Assembly (NCBI RefSeq): GCF_011320075.1
Contig: NZ_JAANPA010000023.1
Location: 1-47,854 of the forward strand
Direction of reading: 5' to 3'
DNA from: Sphingosinicella sp. YJ22
GTDB taxonomy: Bacteria; Pseudomonadota; Alphaproteobacteria; Sphingomonadales; Sphingomonadaceae
Length of the DNA: 47,854 nt
The position numbers were made by a program, and so were the translations under genes. Every line of letters starts with the position of its first letter. Positions within the stretch are counted from its first letter, which is position 1. Under the pieces are notes generated by a model. It made no database searches. It was not told where the DNA came from and worked only from the letters and a program-made list of their open reading frames with translations. Below, piece by piece: positions 11,416 to 19,491 of the stretch.

Positions 11416-12650
11416 TGGCGACGAACGCCACCGAGATCTGGTCCGAGAAGGAAGCGGCGACCACCGGCGCGACCGAGTCCCAGATCGCCAACTACACGAT
11501 CAACTTTGGCCCGCAGCACCCCGCGGCGCACGGCGTGCTGCGCCTCGTGCTCGAGCTCGACGGCGAGATCGTCGAGCGCGTCGATCCGCATGTCGGCCTC
11601 CTCCACCGCGGCACCGAGAAGCTGATCGAATACAAGACCTACATGCAGGCTCTGCCCTATTTCGACCGGCTCGACTACGTGTCGCCGATGTCGATGGAGC
11701 ACAGCTGGGTGCTCGCCGTCGAGAAGCTGCTCGGCCTCGAAGTGCCTCTGCGCGGCCAGTATCTGCGGGTGTTCTTCGCCGAGCTCACCCGCATTTCGAA
11801 CCACCTGCTCAACATCGGCAGCCACGTCATGGACGTCGGCGCGATGACCCCGAACCTGTGGCTGTTCGAGCTTCGCGAAGACCTCATGAACTTCTACGAG
11901 CGCGCGTCGGGCGCTCGCATGCACGCCAATTATTTCCGCCCCGGCGGAGTTCACCAGGACGTGCCTCTGAAGCTCCTCGTCGACATCGGCGAATGGCTCG
12001 ACAGGCGCCTGCCGGTTTTGTTCGAGGATGCATTGAGCCTCGTCGTCGACAACCGCATCTTCAAGCAGCGCAACGTCGACATCGCCGTCGTCTCCAAGGA
12101 GGACGCGCTGGCTTGGGGCTTCTCCGGCCCGATGATCCGCGCCGCGGGCATCCCGTGGGACATCCGCAAGAGCCAGCCCTACGACGTCTATGACCGCATG
12201 GACTTCGAGGTGCCGGTCGGCACCAAGGGCGACTGCTACGACCGCATGATGGTCCGCGTCGAGGAGGTCCGCCAGTCGGCGCGGATCATGAAGCAGTGCC
12301 TCGCCGAGATGCCGGAAGGCCCGGTCGCAAGCCTCGACCGCAAGGTGGTGCCGCCCAAGCGCGCCGAGATGAAGCAGTCGATGGAAGCGCTCATCCACCA
12401 CTTCAAGCTCTACACCGAGGGCTTCCACGTCCCCGCCGGCGAGGTCTATGTCGCCACCGAGAGCCCGAAGGGCGAGTTCGGAGTCTATCTGGTCAGCGAC
12501 GGCACCAACAAGCCGTACCGCTGCAAGATCCGGCCGACCGCGTTCAGCCACCTCCAGGCGATGGACTTCATGACCAAGGGCCACATGCTGGCCGACGCCA
12601 CCGCAATCCTCGGCGCGATGGACATCGTGTTCGGTGAGTGCGACCGGTGA
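11415..12650 (+). CDS. nuoD: NADH-quinone oxidoreductase subunit D
   Basis: 49-kDa-type subunit that forms most of the quinone pocket. 411 residues. Signature blocks [40 protein letters not shown] and the C-terminal DIVFGECDR are all present. The ATG overlaps nuoC's stop by one base (TAATG). The short N-terminal extension before YTINFGPQ is not unusual. Three small genes are inserted between this gene and nuoE. Confidence 0.97.
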
Positions 12651-12790
12651 TGATGGTGCTCGCCATCTTCGGCGGCGCCTTGCTGGTGCTGGCCTATTGG
12701 GCCGCGATCCTCTGGCTGGGGGCGCGCGCCGATCGCTCTCACCTCGAGCGCGAGCGTATTCAAAAGGTGTTCGGGGAGCGCCGCCCGTGA
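12650..12790 (+). CDS. Nuo-insert X1: 46-residue membrane microprotein
   Basis: A very short frame between nuoD and the next gene. The product has one strong membrane helix (about 2-24, rich in Leu, Ala, Trp) followed by a basic/acidic amphipathic tail, LERERIQKVFGERRP. The ATG overlaps nuoD's stop by one base (TGATG) and the stop overlaps the next start (GTGA), which is strong positional evidence that it is translated. The ribosome site is weak, so translation is probably coupled. No homologue recognised. Confidence 0.65.
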   Translation: MMVLAIFGGALLVLAYWAAILWLGARADRSHLERERIQKVFGERRP

Positions 12791-13002
12791 CGATGGCTCT
12801 TTCGGTCGCCCGCTGGCTGCTTCTGGTCTGCATCGCCGTTTGGGCGATCGCGCTGGCCGCGGCGTTGCTCGGCGGTCCGATCGGACCGGCTTATGTCGTC
12901 GCCCAGGGCGCAATTTTCGGCATCGCCTTGTCGGCGCTCGCCACGCTCATCCTGCAGGCGGTGCGCTTCTTCCGTTACCGAAGGAATGGCGGTCATGCCT
13001 GA
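12787..13002 (+). CDS. Nuo-insert X2: 71-residue membrane protein
   Basis: Two predicted membrane helices (about 6-28 and 38-60) and a short basic C terminus, FFRYRRNGG. The GTG at 12787 is chosen over the ATG at 12793 because GGGGAG lies 8 bases before the GTG, and the GTG overlaps the stop of X1. It overlaps X3 by 8 bases. No family is recognised. Topology and size resemble single-purpose accessory proteins of respiratory complexes; that is inference only. Confidence 0.7.
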   Translation: MTMALSVARWLLLVCIAVWAIALAAALLGGPIGPAYVVAQGAIFGIALSALATLILQAVRFFRYRRNGGHA

Positions 13003-13243: not shown

Positions 13244-13912
13244 ATGGCCGAGACCAATCGCCTCACCGCGACCCCCGAGATCCGCGAGCGCTGGGGCGCT
13301 TTCGCGTGGACGAAGGAGAATGACGCCCAGGCCAAGGTCGTTATCGGCCGCTATCCGCCCGGGCGCCAGCAGAGCGCGATCATCCCGTTGCTCGACCTCG
13401 CCCAGCGCCAGGTCGGCGCCGAGACCAGCACCCAGGGCTGGCTGCCGATCCCGGTGATCGAGTTCGTCGCCGCTCAGCTCGGAATGCCGTTCATCCGCGC
13501 CTACGAGGTCGCGACCTTCTACACGATGTTCAACCTGGCGCCGGTCGGCCGTTTCCATGTCCAGGTGTGCGGCACCACGCCGTGCATGCTGCGCGGCTCC
13601 GACGACGTGCTCGCCGCCTGCGCCAAGAAGGGCCTCAAGAAGGGCCACACCACCGCTGACGGCCTGTTCACGCTGACCGAGGTCGAGTGCCTCGGTGCCT
13701 GCGCCAACGCGCCGATGGTCCAGATCAACGACGACAATTTCGAGGACCTGACCTTCGACTCCATGACCGCCGTGCTCGACGCGCTCGCCCGCGGCGAGTC
13801 TCCGAAGCCGGGCCCGCAGGTCGACCGCCAGACGAGCTGCCCCGAGGGCGGCCCGACCAGTCTGCCCGAGATGGTCGGCGAGAATCACGACTATCGGGGG
13901 AGGTGGGAATGA
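13244..13912 (+). CDS. nuoE: NADH-quinone oxidoreductase subunit E
   Basis: 24-kDa-type thioredoxin-fold subunit of the NADH dehydrogenase module, holding [2Fe-2S] cluster N1a. 222 residues. Ligands are Cys109, Cys114, Cys149 and Cys153 in CGTTPCM and CLGACANAPM. The C-terminal 50 residues (Pro/Gly-rich, with one additional cysteine in TSCPEGGPTSLPEM) extend beyond the ligand domain, as in other alphaproteobacterial NuoE proteins. It overlaps X4 by 4 bases. Confidence 0.96.
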   Translation: MAETNRLTATPEIRERWGAFAWTKENDAQAKVVIGRYPPGRQQSAIIPLLDLAQRQVGAETSTQGWLPIPVIEFVAAQLGMPFIRAYEVATFYTMFNLAPVGRFHVQVCGTTPCMLRGSDDVLAACAKKGLKKGHTTADGLFTLTEVECLGACANAPMVQINDDNFEDLTFDSMTAVLDALARGESPKPGPQVDRQTSCPEGGPTSLPEMVGENHDYRGRWE

Positions 13913-14094
13913 AGCAGGGCTCGGCCTTCGTCACCGCCATCGTCCTCGTCCTGCTCGTCCTCGCCGCGCTCAAGCTGATCGGCGTGGTGATCGGCTTTGC
14001 GCTCAAGGTGGCGCTGGTCGTCGTGCTGGCGGGGGTCGGCGTCGTCGCCTGGCTCGCCGTCCAGAAGCGTCTGGAGGACTGGCGTGCGCCCTGA
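13909..14094 (+). CDS. Nuo-insert X4: 61-residue membrane protein
   Basis: Nearly the whole product is hydrophobic: a Val/Leu/Ala/Ile-rich run from about residue 8 to 50 that can make two helices split at Lys33, then a short charged tail [10 protein letters not shown]. The ATG at 13909 overlaps nuoE's stop (ATGA) and has a very purine-rich ribosome site (GGGGGAGGTGG) just upstream. It overlaps the next gene by 11 bases. No family recognised. Confidence 0.7.
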   Translation: MKQGSAFVTAIVLVLLVLAALKLIGVVIGFALKVALVVVLAGVGVVAWLAVQKRLEDWRAP

Positions 14095-14440
14095 CCTTGC
14101 TCTCATCGCCCTTGCGGCGCTGAGCGCCGCCGGTTGCGCCCAGGCCCGCGAGCCCGGCAACCAGGTTGCGGCGCCGGCCAATGTCGCGCAGGCGCCGGCG
14201 AGCCCGGCCGACAACGCCCAGCGCCTGGTCGCGCAGCGGCTCGGCGGCGTGCAGAACCTGTCGTTCGGCGAGGCGCAGATCTTCATGAGCAACGGCGCCA
14301 CCGTGGTGTGCGGCCGTTACCAACAGGCGGGTCAAGCCCCGCAACGTTATGTGGCCGTCGGTGACGAGGACGTCTTCATCGAGGGCGAGTTCGTCGGCGA
14401 CATGAACCAGGCCGTGGCCGAGGCTTGCAGGAACATTTGA
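14084..14440 (+). CDS. Nuo-insert X5: predicted lipoprotein
   Basis: 118 residues from a GTG at 14084, which has GGAGG 6 bases upstream. The N terminus is a lipoprotein signal peptide with lipobox SAAGC (Cys18). After an Ala/Pro-rich linker, a small domain (about 45-118) contains VVCGRYQ and ends in a second cysteine, AEACRNI, which could pair with it. It is oriented to the periplasm or outer membrane. Its stop overlaps the nuoF start by one base (TGATG). Function unknown; periplasmic location is unexpected next to cytoplasmic NADH-module genes. Confidence 0.75.
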
Positions 14441-15732
14441 TGCTCGAGGACAAGGATCGCATCTTCACCAACGTCTACGGGTTCCAGCCCTGGAACCTGA
14501 AGGCGGCGCGCGCCCGCGGCGACTGGGACGACACCAAGACGCTGATGGCGCTTGGCCAGGACGCGATCATCGACATCGTCAAGGATTCGGGCCTTCGCGG
14601 CCGCGGCGGCGCCGGCTTCCCGACCGGCATGAAGTGGAGCTTCATGCCCAAGGAGCCGACTCCCGGCCGGCCCAACTTCCTGGTCATCAACGCCGACGAG
14701 TCCGAGCCGGGCTCGTGCAAAGACCGCGAGATCATCCGCCACGATCCCCACAAGCTGATCGAGGGCGCTCTGCTCGCCGGCTTCGCGATGCGCGCCCGCG
14801 CCGCCTACATCTACATCCGCGGCGAGTTCATCCGCGAGGCGGAGACTCTCTTCGCCGCGGTTCAGGAGGCCTATGACGCGGGCCTGCTCGGCAAGAACGC
14901 CGCCAAGTCGGGCTACGACTTCGACCTGTTCGTCCACCGCGGCGCCGGTGCTTACATCTGCGGCGAAGAGACCGCGATGCTGGAGAGCCTCGAGGGCAAG
15001 AAGGGCCAGCCGCGCCTCAAGCCGCCATTCCCCGCGGGCGCCGGCCTCTACGGCTGCCCGACCACCGTCAACAACGTCGAGTCGATCGCGGTCGTGCCGA
15101 CCATCCTCCGCCGCGGCGCCGCCTGGTTCAGGCGCTTCGGCCGCGAGAAGAACGAGGGCACCAAGCTCTTCCAGATCAGCGGCCATGTGAACAAGCCGAC
15201 CGTGGTCGAGGAGGCGATGAGCATCCCGTTCCGCGAGTTGATCGACCGCCACGCCGGCGGCATCCGCGGCGGCTGGGAAAACCTCCTCGCGGTGATCCCC
15301 GGCGGCTCGTCGGTGCCTTTGGTGCCGGCGGCCGAGATCATGGACGCGCCGATGGACTTCGACGGCCTCAAGGCGCTCGGCTCCGGCCTCGGCACCGCCG
15401 CGATCATCGTCATGGACAAGTCGACCGACATCGTCCGCGCGATCAGCCGAATCTCCTATTTCTACAAGCATGAGTCCTGCGGCCAGTGCACGCCATGCCG
15501 CGAGGGCACCGGCTGGATGTGGCGGGTCATGGAGCGGCTTCGCGAGGGCAATGCCGACATCCACGAGATCGACACGCTTTACGACGTCACCAAGCAGGTC
15601 GAGGGCCACACCATCTGCGCCCTCGGCGACGCCGCCGCCTGGCCGATCCAGGGACTTATCCGTCACTTCCGTCCGGAGCTTGAGCGGCGCATAGAGGAGC
15701 GTCAACACCAACGACTGGAGGCTGCAGAATGA
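14440..15732 (+). CDS. nuoF: NADH-quinone oxidoreductase subunit F
   Basis: 51-kDa-type subunit that binds NADH and FMN and cluster N3. 430 residues. Visible motifs: NADH-binding [19 protein letters not shown]-binding [16 protein letters not shown], the [20 protein letters not shown] block and the cluster ligands in [15 protein letters not shown] with a last Cys in HTICALGD. The ATG at 14440 gives the family start [11 protein letters not shown]; a TTG at 14425 is in frame but within the lipoprotein gene. It overlaps X6 by 4 bases. Confidence 0.97.
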
Positions 15733-16388
15733 TCGCATCGCATCTCTTCCTCGTCGCGGCGCTCACTGTTTCCGGAAGCGCGCCAGCATCGGTGGCTCTT
15801 CCCCTCGCATCCCTCTCGGCAAGCCAGGCCGCGGCGGTGAGCCCTCGCCAGACCATGAACGGCTTCGCCCGCTGCCTCGCTGCGGCGCGGATCGACGTGG
15901 CGCGGGGCGTTCTCGCCCTTCCGACTGCGAGCAACGAGCAGATGACGGCCGCTGCCGCGATGCTCAACGGCGGTGATCCCTGTGGGGGTGACGGCGAGTT
16001 CGAACTCGAACTGCGCGGCATCAACCTGATCGGCGGCCTCGCCGAAGGCCTGCTCGACGCGCAGCCGCAGGCCCGCAACGTGGCGACCCTTGCCTCGTGG
16101 GATGACGAGGCGATCGGCCGAAGCGCGCTTCGTCCGCGGAATGGCAACGAAGATCTGGGCCTTTGTGTGGTTCGACGGGCGCCGCAGGAGGCGCAGCGCG
16201 TGCTCGAGACGGCCCCGGACTCGGCCGCCGAACAGCAGGCGATCAGCGCCATCGTTCCCCATCTCGGGCCGTGCACGCCCGCCGGCGCGAGTCTGCGGTT
16301 CGACAGACCGACGATCCGCGCTCAGCTGGCGATCGCGCTGTATCGCGCATCGACCTTCCTCCGCACTGCGTCCGCCACCGGGAACTGA
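15729..16388 (+). CDS. Nuo-insert X6: secreted protein with two Cys-36-Cys repeats
   Basis: 219 residues with an N-terminal signal peptide (about 1-20). Four cysteines, 49, 85, 146 and 182, fall in two pairs each exactly 36 residues apart. The segments following Cys49 and Cys146 resemble each other, so the protein appears to contain two copies of one unit: Cys, a helix with a VL core, Pro-Cys, then about 10 residues and a hydrophobic helix. X7 just downstream has the same arrangement. The ATG at 15729 overlaps nuoF's stop (ATGA). Probably periplasmic with two disulfides. No family recognised. Confidence 0.75.
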
Positions 16389-16422
16389 TCGATGCCGTTC
16401 CTTGAGGTCTGTTGTATGAAAG

Positions 16423-16446
16423 CGGAGGTGCCGAAAGGCGCCTCCG
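16423..16446 (+). other. Strong stem-loop with GAAA tetraloop inside the nuo operon
   Basis: CGGAGGTGCC and GGCGCCTCCG form a 10-bp stem with one G-U pair closed by a GAAA loop of the stable GNRA type. It sits in the 83-base gap between the two Cys-repeat genes, the widest gap since nuoA apart from the nuoI-nuoJ repeat. No T tract follows, so it is not a standard terminator; RNA processing, stability or attenuation are possible roles. Confidence 0.6.
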
Positions 16447-16471
16447 TGCCCCAAGCCGGCGAGGCCGCGGA

Positions 16472-17158
16472 ATGACTCCGATCCTGCTCGCTCTTGCCGT
16501 CGTCGCTCAGCCCGGTCAGCCCCCGGAGCAGCCGCAGGAGCCGCTCCGCGAAGAATTTCCGGCGTCGCGCGGGCTCACGCCCAACCACGACCTGTTCTAT
16601 GACGACGTGCCGGTGTCGACCGCCGAGGCGCGCGTCGCCATGCAGCGCTTCGGCGGCTGCGTCGCCCAGCGCAGCCGGCAGCTCGCGGTGGACACGATCG
16701 GCAGCGACTTCACCACGCAAACCTATCGTTCCCGGCTCCAGCGGCTGGTGCGCGCCAACGAGGATTGCTTTCGCGAGGGCGGGCGCCGCATGCTCTCGTC
16801 CAACCTGCTCTTCGCCGGCGCCATCGCCGAAGCGCTGGTCGAGAGCGACGCCCAGCCGCTCAACGTCCGCCTCGCGCGCGCCGCGATGCAGCCGGCGCCG
16901 CGCGCTTATGCGCCGAGCGATCAGGTCGCGATCTGCGTCGTTCGCTCGCTTCCCGACGAGACCGGCCGGTTGATGGCCAGCGAAGTCGGAAGCGCGGAGG
17001 AAGAGGCCGCGGTTCGTGCGCTTGCCCCGGCCGTCGAGGCTTGCGCGACGAGCCGGCGGCTCGAAACCAACAGCGCCGGGCTTCGGGCGATCCTCGCCAC
17101 CGCGGCCTATCGCAGCATCAACGGCGCCGCCGCCACCGGCACGGCGCAACGCGACTAA
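16472..17158 (+). CDS. Nuo-insert X7: secreted paralogue of X6
   Basis: 228 residues from the ATG at 16472 (GAGG 7 bases upstream); an upstream in-frame start at 16412 would run through the hairpin and is rejected. A short signal sequence (about 1-13) is followed by a Pro/Glu-rich linker. Cysteines 63, 99, 155 and 191 again form two pairs exactly 36 apart. Shared features with X6 include CVVR after the third cysteine, a [20 protein letters not shown] helix after the second, and a C-terminal AAYRS/ALYRA helix after the fourth. Function unknown. Confidence 0.75.
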   Translation: MTPILLALAVVAQPGQPPEQPQEPLREEFPASRGLTPNHDLFYDDVPVSTAEARVAMQRFGGCVAQRSRQLAVDTIGSDFTTQTYRSRLQRLVRANEDCFREGGRRMLSSNLLFAGAIAEALVESDAQPLNVRLARAAMQPAPRAYAPSDQVAICVVRSLPDETGRLMASEVGSAEEEAAVRALAPAVEACATSRRLETNSAGLRAILATAAYRSINGAAATGTAQRD

Positions 17159-17182: not shown

Positions 17183-19204
17183 ATGCCCAAGCTTACGGTT
17201 GACGGAATTGAAGTCGAGGTGCCGCAGGGCGCCACGGTGCTCCAGGCCTGCGAGGCCGCGGGGAAGGAGATTCCGCGCTTCTGCTATCACGAGCGGCTGT
17301 CGATCGCCGGCAATTGCCGCATGTGTCTGGTCGAGGTGAAGCCGGGGCCGCCCAAGCCGCAGGCGTCGTGCGCGCTGCCGGCGGCGGACAATCAGGAGAT
17401 CGTCACCAACTCGCTGACCGTGAAGAAGGCGCGGGAAGGGGTGCTCGAGTTCCTGCTCATCAACCACCCGCTGGACTGCCCGATCTGCGACCAGGGCGGC
17501 GAGTGCGACCTCCAGGACGAGACCATGGCCTATGGCCGCGGTCACAACCGCTATGACGAGAACAAGCGGGCGGTCGCCGAGAAATATATGGGTCCGGTGG
17601 TCAAGACCTTCATGACCCGCTGCATCCACTGCACCCGCTGCATCCGCTTCATGGAAGAGGTCGCCGGAGTCGAGGATCTCGGCGCGGTCGGCCGCGGCGA
17701 GGATATGGAGATCACCTCCTATCTCGAGGATGCGCTGAAGAGCGAGCTGTCGGGCAACGTCGTCGATCTCTGCCCGGTCGGCGCGCTGACCTCGAAGCCC
17801 TACAGCTTCGAGGCGCGGCCGTGGGAGCTTCGCAAGACCCCGGCGATCGACGTGATGGACGCGGTCGGCACCAACATCCGCCTCGACAGCCGCATGCGCG
17901 AAGTGATGCGCGCGCTTCCGCGCCTCAACGAGGACGTCAACGAGGAATGGGCGTCGGACAAGACCCGCCACGCCGTCGACGGGCTTCTGCGCCGCCGCCT
18001 CGACCGGCCGTGGATCCGGGTGAAGGGCAAGCTCCAGCAGGCGAGCTGGAACGAGGCGTTCGGGGCGATCGCCAAGGCCGCCAAGAAGGCCGGCTCCAGC
18101 GTCGCCGCGATCGCCGGCGACCTCGTGGACGTCGAGACGATGTACGCGGCCAAGAAGCTGCTCGCGTCGCTCGGCTCGGACCTGGTCGAGGGCCGCCAGA
18201 CCGGTCTCGACTATGACGCGTCGAACATCGCCGCGGTCAATTTCAACACCACCATCGCCGGTCTTGAGACCGCCGACGTGGTGCTGCTCGTCGGTACCAA
18301 CCCGCGCTGGGAAGCGAGCCTCGTCAACACCCGCATCCGCAAGGCGGTGAAGCGCGGCGCGAAGGTGTTCGCGATCGGCCCGGAGGTCGACCTCACCTAC
18401 CCGGCGGCCTGGCTCGGCAACGACCTGTCGCTGCTAGCCAAGCTGCCAAAGGAAGCTGCCGACGCCCTCACCGGCGCGGCGCGGCCGGCGGTGATCGTCG
18501 GCGGCGCGGCTCTGAAGGTGCCGGGTGGGCAGGCGGCTGCGCTCGCGCTCGTCTCCGCCTTCAACCTGATCCGTGACGGCTGGAACGGCTTCAATGTCCT
18601 CCACACCGCCGCGGCGCGCACCGGCGGGCTGATGCTCGGCTACGCGCAGGCCGGTGGCATGGCCGCGATCGCCGAAAAGGCGCCGAAGCTGCTCTTCATG
18701 CTCGGCGCCGACGAGATGGACTTCGCGTCGTTCGCCGGCGCGACCAAGGTCTATATCGGCCATCATGGCGACAAGGGCGCCGCCGCGGCCGACATCGTCC
18801 TTCCGGGTGCCGCTTACAGCGAGAAGCACGGCATCTACGTGAACCTCGAAGGCCGCGTTCAATATTCCGAGAAGGCCGTCGATCCGCCGGGCGATGCCCG
18901 CGAGGACTGGTCGATCTTCCGCGCGCTGTCGGAGGTGCTCGGCAAGCCGCTGCCGTTCGACAGCTACAGCCAGCTCCGCCAGGCGCTGTTCGCCGAGGAT
19001 CCGCGCTTCGCCCAGCCGGAGCTCGTCGCCTTCGACTGGGCGCCGCCGACGCTCGCCGCCGCGAAGATCGCCAAGGGGACCGAGGTCGCCTATCCGGTCC
19101 AGGACTTCTATCTCACCAATCCGATCGCCCGCTCCTCGCCGACGCTCCAGCGCTGCTCGGCCGAGATCCTGCACGGGCAGGACTTCGCGGAGGCCGCGGA
19201 ATGA
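17183..19204 (+). CDS. nuoG: NADH-quinone oxidoreductase subunit G
   Basis: 75-kDa-type subunit with three or more Fe-S clusters and a molybdopterin-oxidoreductase-like C-terminal domain. 673 residues. N1b ligands Cys34, Cys45, Cys48 and Cys63; the His-Cys3 cluster with His95, Cys99, Cys102 and Cys108; and the N4 motif CIHCTRC with a distal cysteine in DLCPVGAL are all visible. The length is that of the short alphaproteobacterial form. X8 overlaps the stop by 4 bases. In the first 110 residues the only cysteine outside these clusters is Cys23. Confidence 0.97.
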   Translation: MPKLTVDGIEVEVPQGATVLQACEAAGKEIPRFCYHERLSIAGNCRMCLVEVKPGPPKPQASCALPAADNQEIVTNSLTVKKAREGVLEFLLINHPLDCPICDQGGECDLQDETMAYGRGHNRYDENKRAVAEKYMGPVVKTFMTRCIHCTRCIRFMEEVAGVEDLGAVGRGEDMEITSYLEDALKSELSGNVVDLCPVGALTSKPYSFEARPWELRKTPAIDVMDAVGTNIRLDSRMREVMRALPRLNEDVNEEWASDKTRHAVDGLLRRRLDRPWIRVKGKLQQASWNEAFGAIAKAAKKAGSSVAAIAGDLVDVETMYAAKKLLASLGSDLVEGRQTGLDYDASNIAAVNFNTTIAGLETADVVLLVGTNPRWEASLVNTRIRKAVKRGAKVFAIGPEVDLTYPAAWLGNDLSLLAKLPKEAADALTGAARPAVIVGGAALKVPGGQAAALALVSAFNLIRDGWNGFNVLHTAAARTGGLMLGYAQAGGMAAIAEKAPKLLFMLGADEMDFASFAGATKVYIGHHGDKGAAAADIVLPGAAYSEKHGIYVNLEGRVQYSEKAVDPPGDAREDWSIFRALSEVLGKPLPFDSYSQLRQALFAEDPRFAQPELVAFDWAPPTLAAAKIAKGTEVAYPVQDFYLTNPIARSSPTLQRCSAEILHGQDFAEAAE

Positions 19205-19491
19205 GCGATTTACCACGCGTGGTTCAGCGCGCGCCCGCATTTTTCTACGCCGCCGCCGTTCTGTTCTTCATCGCCTCGATCGTGCTGCTTCATCTTCAGC
19301 TGGAAAATTCGATGGGTGCCGGACGGGCTGATCCAGCACTCGAACCCTACACGAGACTTGCTGTTCTGAGTGGATGGCTCCAGGCGGCGGAGGGAGCGAT
19401 TTACATCGCCGCCAACGGCCTGCTCATCCACATCCTGCTCGCCATCTGGAGCAATGTTCGGGGAACCCTGCGTTCCGGAGTTGACGAATGA
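19201..19491 (+). CDS. Nuo-insert X8: 96-residue membrane protein
   Basis: Two predicted membrane helices (about 14-33 and 64-85) flank a polar loop of some 30 residues, [18 protein letters not shown]. The second helix contains [19 protein letters not shown]. Both ends overlap the neighbours by 4 bases (ATGA with nuoG, ATGA with nuoH), so it is translationally coupled on both sides. No family recognised. Its position between the peripheral-arm nuoG and the membrane-arm nuoH is notable. Confidence 0.75.

Follow-up and report, generated by a model that had tools for sequence, protein, structure and literature searches.

What are two genes for exported-looking proteins doing in the middle of the operon for respiratory complex I? 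The question arises from a stretch of 47,854 nucleotides of Sphingosinicella sp. YJ22 (contig NZ_JAANPA010000023.1), hereafter the window, which is a complete contig of a 2.97-Mb genome. Two genes on the same strand fill the interval between nuoF and nuoG, the latter two identified by Pfam: the first encodes protein A, of 219 residues (15729 to 16388, forward strand), and the second protein B, of 228 residues (16472 to 17158, forward strand). Here, we show using profile comparison, structure prediction and a survey of related genomes that A and B belong to a family of double-module proteins with conserved cysteines that resides in the nuo operon. That this is a genuine new family of exported double-module proteins we regard as close to certain. 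Our proposal that the proteins also work with complex I is a tentative one, and a passenger role unrelated to complex I is at least as likely.

Four cysteines and two modules per protein

A preliminary description of the window had read the two genes as tandem paralogues built from one unit present four times, each unit with two cysteines exactly 36 residues apart. The four cysteines of each protein are found where it placed them: in A these are Cys49 (codon 15873 to 15875), Cys85 (15981 to 15983), Cys146 (16164 to 16166) and Cys182 (16272 to 16274), and in B Cys63 (16658 to 16660), Cys99 (16766 to 16768), Cys155 (16934 to 16936) and Cys191 (17042 to 17044), all on the forward strand and called C1 to C4 in this order. 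The spacing of 36 holds for both pairs of A and B; as a constant of the family it stands for the second pair only. Among 170 distinct open-frame members collected from the available loci, all four cysteines are aligned in 165, and 164 of these have exactly four cysteines in their core. C3 and C4 are 36 residues apart in 161 of the 165 and 37 apart in 4, whereas the C1–C2 spacing runs from 33 to 43 and equals 36 in 57. A and B have their four cysteines at the family positions, with C3 and C4 36 residues apart, and the family profile (182 positions, with both proteins among its rows) matches them over nearly their full length at E-values of 5.9e-48 (A) and 2.4e-49 (B); as single queries they find each other at 1.2e-7 and 5.3e-7. 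Little else is constant: in an alignment of 33 members the four cysteines are the only invariant columns and the mean column identity is 25%, and besides the cysteines an alignment of 29 sequences has only two invariant residues, a Glu and an Arg in the second unit, and a nearly invariant Glu in the first.

When an exported protein drifts in sequence but keeps an even number of cysteines, these typically form disulfides, and we infer one disulfide per module, C1 to C2 and C3 to C4, with which the helix order predicted below would be compatible. Joint loss of cysteines was uninformative as a test of this pairing, with only one true single-cysteine loss among the 170 members; this member, the second copy at locus L153, lost C1 only, and the other four of the five without all four aligned cysteines are incomplete or misaligned, in one case through the in-frame stop of genome G666 described below. 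Export is indicated by a crude test for a hydrophobic start: a signal-peptide-like start, which A and B also have, is seen in 157 of the 170 members versus 97 of 600 arbitrary open-reading-frame positions, and the members are probably exported. An internal stop lies within the matched range in 11 of 150 listed matches, of which one was inspected, a copy outside nuo in genome G666 (L224); here an in-frame stop stands between the first and second cysteine, possibly marking a decaying gene.

Are the two halves of each protein copies of one unit? Between the proteins, the resemblance proposed earlier holds for like units, with alignment z-scores of 5.3 for A1 with B1 and 13.2 for A2 with B2 and none of 1,000 shuffles as good in either case. 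Unlike units give 1.9 (A1 with B2, 49 of 1,000 shuffles as good) and 0.4 (A2 with B1, 330 of 1,000). The resemblance claimed within each protein does not emerge from the single sequences, where it is at chance level (z-scores of 0.09 and 0.14, with 420 and 419 of 1,000 shuffles as good); profiles were therefore used instead, and there it is evident. In profiles from 46 open frames of 99 genomes, which include both window proteins and one gene twice, hhalign matches the N-terminal half to the C-terminal half at an E-value of 8.9e-17 with the cysteines in register, and with a score of 75, the highest among 200 column-permuted controls being 14.8. Profiles from the 165 sequences give 1.5e-16; masking every cysteine leaves an E-value of 9.9e-13 and a score of 54, where the best of 100 permuted controls reaches 10.7. 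Since the match survives masking, it is independent of the cysteines, although both sets had been selected on cysteines (the 46 frames on a cysteine tetrad, the 165 on having all four aligned), a circularity that masking answers in part only. When 59 genomes were searched with a profile of 30 C-terminal halves (those of A and B plus 28 random ones), N-terminal halves of the same genes were matched as well, including those of protein A (3.1e-4) and of a third paralogue (2.9e-6). The N-terminal half of protein B was not matched at E-values up to 0.01, and no single-unit gene was recognised by this profile in the part of the frames inspected in the 59 genomes.

Structure prediction had been suggested as a check for repeated helical modules, and the predicted models bear them out. 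AlphaFold2 models of A and B, built from the window proteins and the named loci only, have mean predicted local distance difference test (pLDDT) scores of 85.6 for A (119 of 219 residues at 90 or above) and 85.2 for B (146 of 228), and the helix order is the same in all four units: first the helix that bears the first cysteine, next a short one, then a third and lastly a mildly hydrophobic one. On the forward strand, unit A1 comprises residues 37 to 111 (15837 to 16061; predicted helices 39–53, 55–62, 69–80 and 97–111), A2 residues 135 to 217 (16131 to 16379; 139–150, 152–159, 166–182 and 193–217), B1 residues 51 to 124 (16622 to 16843; 51–67, 69–76, 83–95 and 111–124) and B2 residues 144 to 220 (16901 to 17131; 148–159, 161–169, 175–191 and 201–220). 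Counted from the first cysteine of each unit, helix 2 is predicted to begin at +6 and helix 3 at +20 in all four units, and helix 4 at +46 to +48; the third helix would end at the second cysteine in the second units and 4 to 5 residues before it in the first units. The segments after the second cysteines, described beforehand as hydrophobic helices, are indeed predicted to be helical, but their hydrophobicity is only mild, with mean Kyte-Doolittle values of 1.05, 0.21, 1.37 and 0.61. Profiles and predicted helix order thus agree on one unit present four times through an internal duplication and a gene duplication.

The internal duplication is clear in the family profiles, and it is old and general to the family; being common to all of it, it is older than the gene duplication. 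The latter is old too, because Sphingomonadales bacterium UBA2369 has a separate counterpart for each of the two genes: this genome holds the nearest relative of protein A and also has two copies like protein B. Near relatives of protein B exist within the genus, at 53% identity in genome G053, where nuoG is 82% identical. The third paralogue, a diverged one matched at an E-value of 2.6e-24, lies away from nuo on contig 1 of the same genome (84024 to 84548; L068:3446-4582), where it is flanked, as judged by eye, by a gene for an exported protein and a peptidyl-tRNA hydrolase gene.

The preliminary description knew of no named family with this pattern, and the searches agree. Neither A nor B has a match in Pfam, NCBIfam, PHROGs or PADLOC, and no complex I subunit model of Pfam or NCBIfam matches either protein. 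A profile search of Protein Data Bank (PDB) sequences gave no match at E-values up to 10, Foldseek found no PDB match with an E-value up to 0.001 for either model, and tblastn of protein B against plasmids gave no match. A few marginal hits were taken as chance: the best phmmer matches in the PDB were a stretch of GAPDH (0.038) and ABC transporters (1.5), Pfam on 29 relatives gave one unrelated match (0.081), and NCBIfam on 33 relatives gave eight models matching one relative each (0.017 to 0.081), including a model of NDH-1 subunit H at 0.081. In the titles, abstract openings and passages of the literature searched, no description of the family or of such nuo inserts was found; the available text of one paper, on bacterial homologues of NDUFA9, NDUFA12 and NDUFS4, lacks the word Sphingomon- (PMC12361115).

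The nuo operon as the family's address

The family profile was found in at least 126 of 298 genomes of the window's taxonomic family, in 60 of 96 genera; the count is a lower bound as scoring was limited to 11 candidates per genome. None of 46 genomes from other families of the order matched. With at most 8 candidates scored per genome, 4 of 385 genomes sampled from the class and 11 of 398 from the phylum matched, all of them in the window's own family. The 20 named loci are all from Sphingomonadales by record title, and among their genera NCBI places Stakelama in Sphingomonadaceae and Tsuneonella in Erythrobacteraceae.

Where do these genes reside? Among the matches listed, 150 copies from 110 of the 126 genomes can be placed, and nuoG positions were found for 109 of these genomes. 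The address was scored by nuoG, with a limit of 4 kb upstream in one scan and 6 kb in another, and nuoF was checked for the minority only. In 102 of the 109 genomes nuoG has a copy upstream of it on its own strand (within 50 bases in 79 of them) and in two, G068 and G613, copies lie just downstream, so that a copy adjoins nuoG in 104; the remaining five have copies only elsewhere. Of the 150 copies, 136 are upstream of nuoG and 3 downstream of it; 10 have other places, and the last one comes from a genome in which nuoG was not matched. Both nuoF and nuoG are present at 17 of the 20 named loci; in one of the other three the contig stops short of nuoG, and the loci of Sphingomonas desiccabilis and Novosphingobium sp. 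HII-3 have neither gene. Stakelama marina and Tsuneonella rigui are examples of named carriers with a copy beside nuoG. Copy number varies from one to four per locus, with more than one copy upstream of nuoG in 28 of the 102 genomes and four tandem copies in three genomes of one genus. In genome G618, two copies form a single open frame of 538 residues with four units (L261). Genome G028 has four tandem copies (L074:4182-7751) on a contig other than that of nuoG.

In the window, nuoF (14425 to 15732, forward strand; Pfam Complex1_51K and NADH_4Fe-4S) precedes the two genes, and its stop codon overlaps the ATG of the gene for A in the sequence ATGA. The gene for B starts with ATG, an alternative start being possible at a TTG at 16412, and its stop lies 24 bases before nuoG (17183 to 19204, forward strand; Pfam Molybdopterin, NADH-G_4Fe-4S_3 and others). 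Further small open frames stand at other junctions of this operon, at 12634 to 13002 after nuoD, at 13909 to 14094 and 14075 to 14440 between nuoE and nuoF, and at 19201 to 19491 between nuoG and nuoH; none of the four has a significant Pfam match, and by eye they are membrane or lipoprotein-like. In genome G613, which has two family members behind nuoG, the nuoF–nuoG junction holds an exported-looking protein of 186 residues with four cysteines in two wide pairs (L153). As a candidate remote member it was not significant (hmmsearch E-values of 0.047 and 0.031 in a one-sequence search; hhalign 0.67).

Partner or passenger of complex I

What might such proteins do in this operon? We tentatively propose that they are periplasmic proteins without catalytic activity, stapled by disulfides, which are expressed together with complex I and perhaps bind its outer face; this is possible, though we would not wager on it. 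The family would consist of small, all-helical exported proteins of sphingomonads, each made of two copies of a module that runs from the helix with the first cysteine, through a short helix and a helix ending at or just before the second cysteine, to a mildly hydrophobic helix. A and B would be made from the nuo transcript along with complex I, as gene order suggests, and after export one periplasmic disulfide would staple each module. The proteins would then serve as structural, dispensable accessories at the periplasmic face of the respiratory membrane, where they may bind or protect the membrane arm of complex I. They look non-catalytic because the 29 aligned sequences share no invariant residue other than the cysteines, one Glu and one Arg. 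By gene order, A and B have the nuo-operon location expected of complex I subunits, and the near-fixed nuo address of the family argues for a role with the complex.

Several findings weigh against this proposal. NuoF and NuoG are themselves cytoplasmic, so gene order alone implies no contact. A subunit should be present wherever its complex is, but the family was found in at least 126 of the 298 genomes and nuoG in 284 of the same genomes; within the genus of the window's strain, a match was found in 4 of the 7 genomes. From the nuoG list, 18 nuoF–nuoG junctions lacking a member were inspected; two of the genomes concerned, G492 and G028, have copies elsewhere. The gap is at most 6 bases in 14 of them and 34, 126, 367 and 409 bases in the other four, and three junctions from congeners of the window's strain have gaps of 3, -1 and 126 bases. 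Since nuoF and nuoG are adjacent in 14 of the 18, complex I does not need the family, and such clean absence indicates that the gene is gained or lost while complex I is retained. The two long gaps (L148 in G057 and L154 in G087) hold other genes, for an aspartyl-protease-like protein (Pfam E-value of 2.6e-4, below the cut-off) and a membrane-type protein. Ten of the 150 listed copies are outside nuo, and seven stretches of 10 to 15 kb around outside copies contain neither nuoF nor nuoG. A quick tree of 165 of the 170 members has about nine changes between nuo and other places, a number that is approximate, as the label nuo was given by default to each locus without a known other place, and at least one of these, L104, lies outside the operon. 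The family also diverges faster than its neighbours: the ratio of nonsynonymous to synonymous substitution rates (dN/dS), from Nei-Gojobori counts, ranges from 0.05 to 0.52 across 18 comparisons between close genomes, against 0.03 to 0.11 for nuoF and nuoG across 12, with few changes in one of the two groups.

Several of these observations would follow if the proteins were passengers, that is, if the same exported, disulfide-stapled family acted elsewhere in the envelope and nuo were a site of strong, constant expression that collects accessory genes. We give this explanation somewhat less than an even chance. Patchy presence, clean absence, copies elsewhere and the unrelated genes that occupy the same junction in two examined genomes argue for it, and other small Pfam-less genes stand at further junctions of the window's nuo operon. 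However, if the expression site were neutral, one would expect it to be just one among many, whereas a copy is next to nuoG in 104 of 109 genomes, and in the two genomes with a copy behind nuoG the family has kept to the operon while its place differs. The operon place, together with two cysteine pairs per protein that are almost never lost, would also suit a role in redox sensing or assembly, with redox-active cysteine pairs coupling complex I biogenesis to the periplasmic oxidative state. We consider this improbable: with spacings of 33–43 and 36–37 there is no close CXXC-like pair, and 172 of the 298 genomes have no match though 284 have nuoG, which is unexpected for an assembly factor.

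Copy-number change and divergence would instead be explained by a fast-evolving envelope protein of conflict or competition, such as an inhibitor, an immunity protein or a surface effector. One to four copies per locus, the 28 of 102 genomes with more than one copy upstream of nuoG and the deep divergence are in line with this, but the family has no PADLOC or PHROGs match, its dN/dS is below 1 in all 18 close comparisons and its place in a housekeeping operon is steady, which together make such a role very improbable. Lastly, spurious frames in GC-rich DNA with coincidental cysteines could account for the chance-level internal similarity in single sequences and for long overlapping frames on both strands. 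This explanation is refuted by 165 of 170 distinct relatives with four cysteines, by purifying selection and by the confident models, and we leave it practically no weight.

Comparison with known systems and significance

How does the family compare with known parts of complex I? In the text available from PMC8762328, NDUFA8 of mitochondrial complex I has two disulfide-linked helix-turn-helix motifs. The mitochondrial CX9C (CHCH-type) subunits NDUFA8, NDUFS5, NDUFB7 and NDUFB10 may be likened to A and B as small, helical, disulfide-linked proteins, the disulfides of A and B being inferred, and lie on the intermembrane-space side of complex I. They differ in their CX9C motifs, where the sphingomonad family has single cysteines 33–43 residues apart (36–37 in the second pair). 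Twin CX9C motifs are absent from A, B and the 165 members, and Pfam, PDB and Foldseek searches gave no CX9C/CHCH sequence match or significant fold match. The passages of PMC11522691 on complex I of Paracoccus denitrificans describe the supernumerary subunits NDUFS4, NDUFS6, NDUFA12 and PIMT, and report NDUFA8 and NDUFS5 to be absent on the periplasmic side of this enzyme. These supernumerary subunits are a precedent for extra proteins bound to an alphaproteobacterial complex I; A and B, in contrast, match no Pfam family and look exported. By analogy, sphingomonad complex I might carry a periplasmic-face set of lineage-specific, disulfide-stapled double-module subunits, an independent bacterial counterpart of the mitochondrial CX9C outer scaffold, whose one to four tandem copies would together give a clamp with two to eight modules. 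The clamp idea comes from the natural four-module frame found in one genome; the arrangement as a whole we think unlikely.

The family is also comparable in kind to uncharacterised, lineage-specific families of exported proteins (domain of unknown function, or DUF, type). Like these, it has a signal-peptide-like start and few conserved residues besides the cysteines, and it is patchy, multi-copy and found in one taxonomic family. Unlike these, it has a near-fixed address in a core respiratory operon and a clear double-module build.

In conclusion, A and B represent a protein family that is new to the searched libraries, is without a significant match to a solved fold and has a nearly fixed address in the operon of complex I. 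Its presence in some genomes and clean absence from others, among congeners, make the complex I question directly testable. Sphingomonads are known for the degradation of pollutants and lignin compounds. If binding to complex I is true, the respiratory enzyme of these bacteria would have periplasmic-face accessory subunits of a design that recalls the mitochondrial one; if there is no such binding, the locus would illustrate the uptake of unrelated genes for exported proteins into the operon of a core enzyme.

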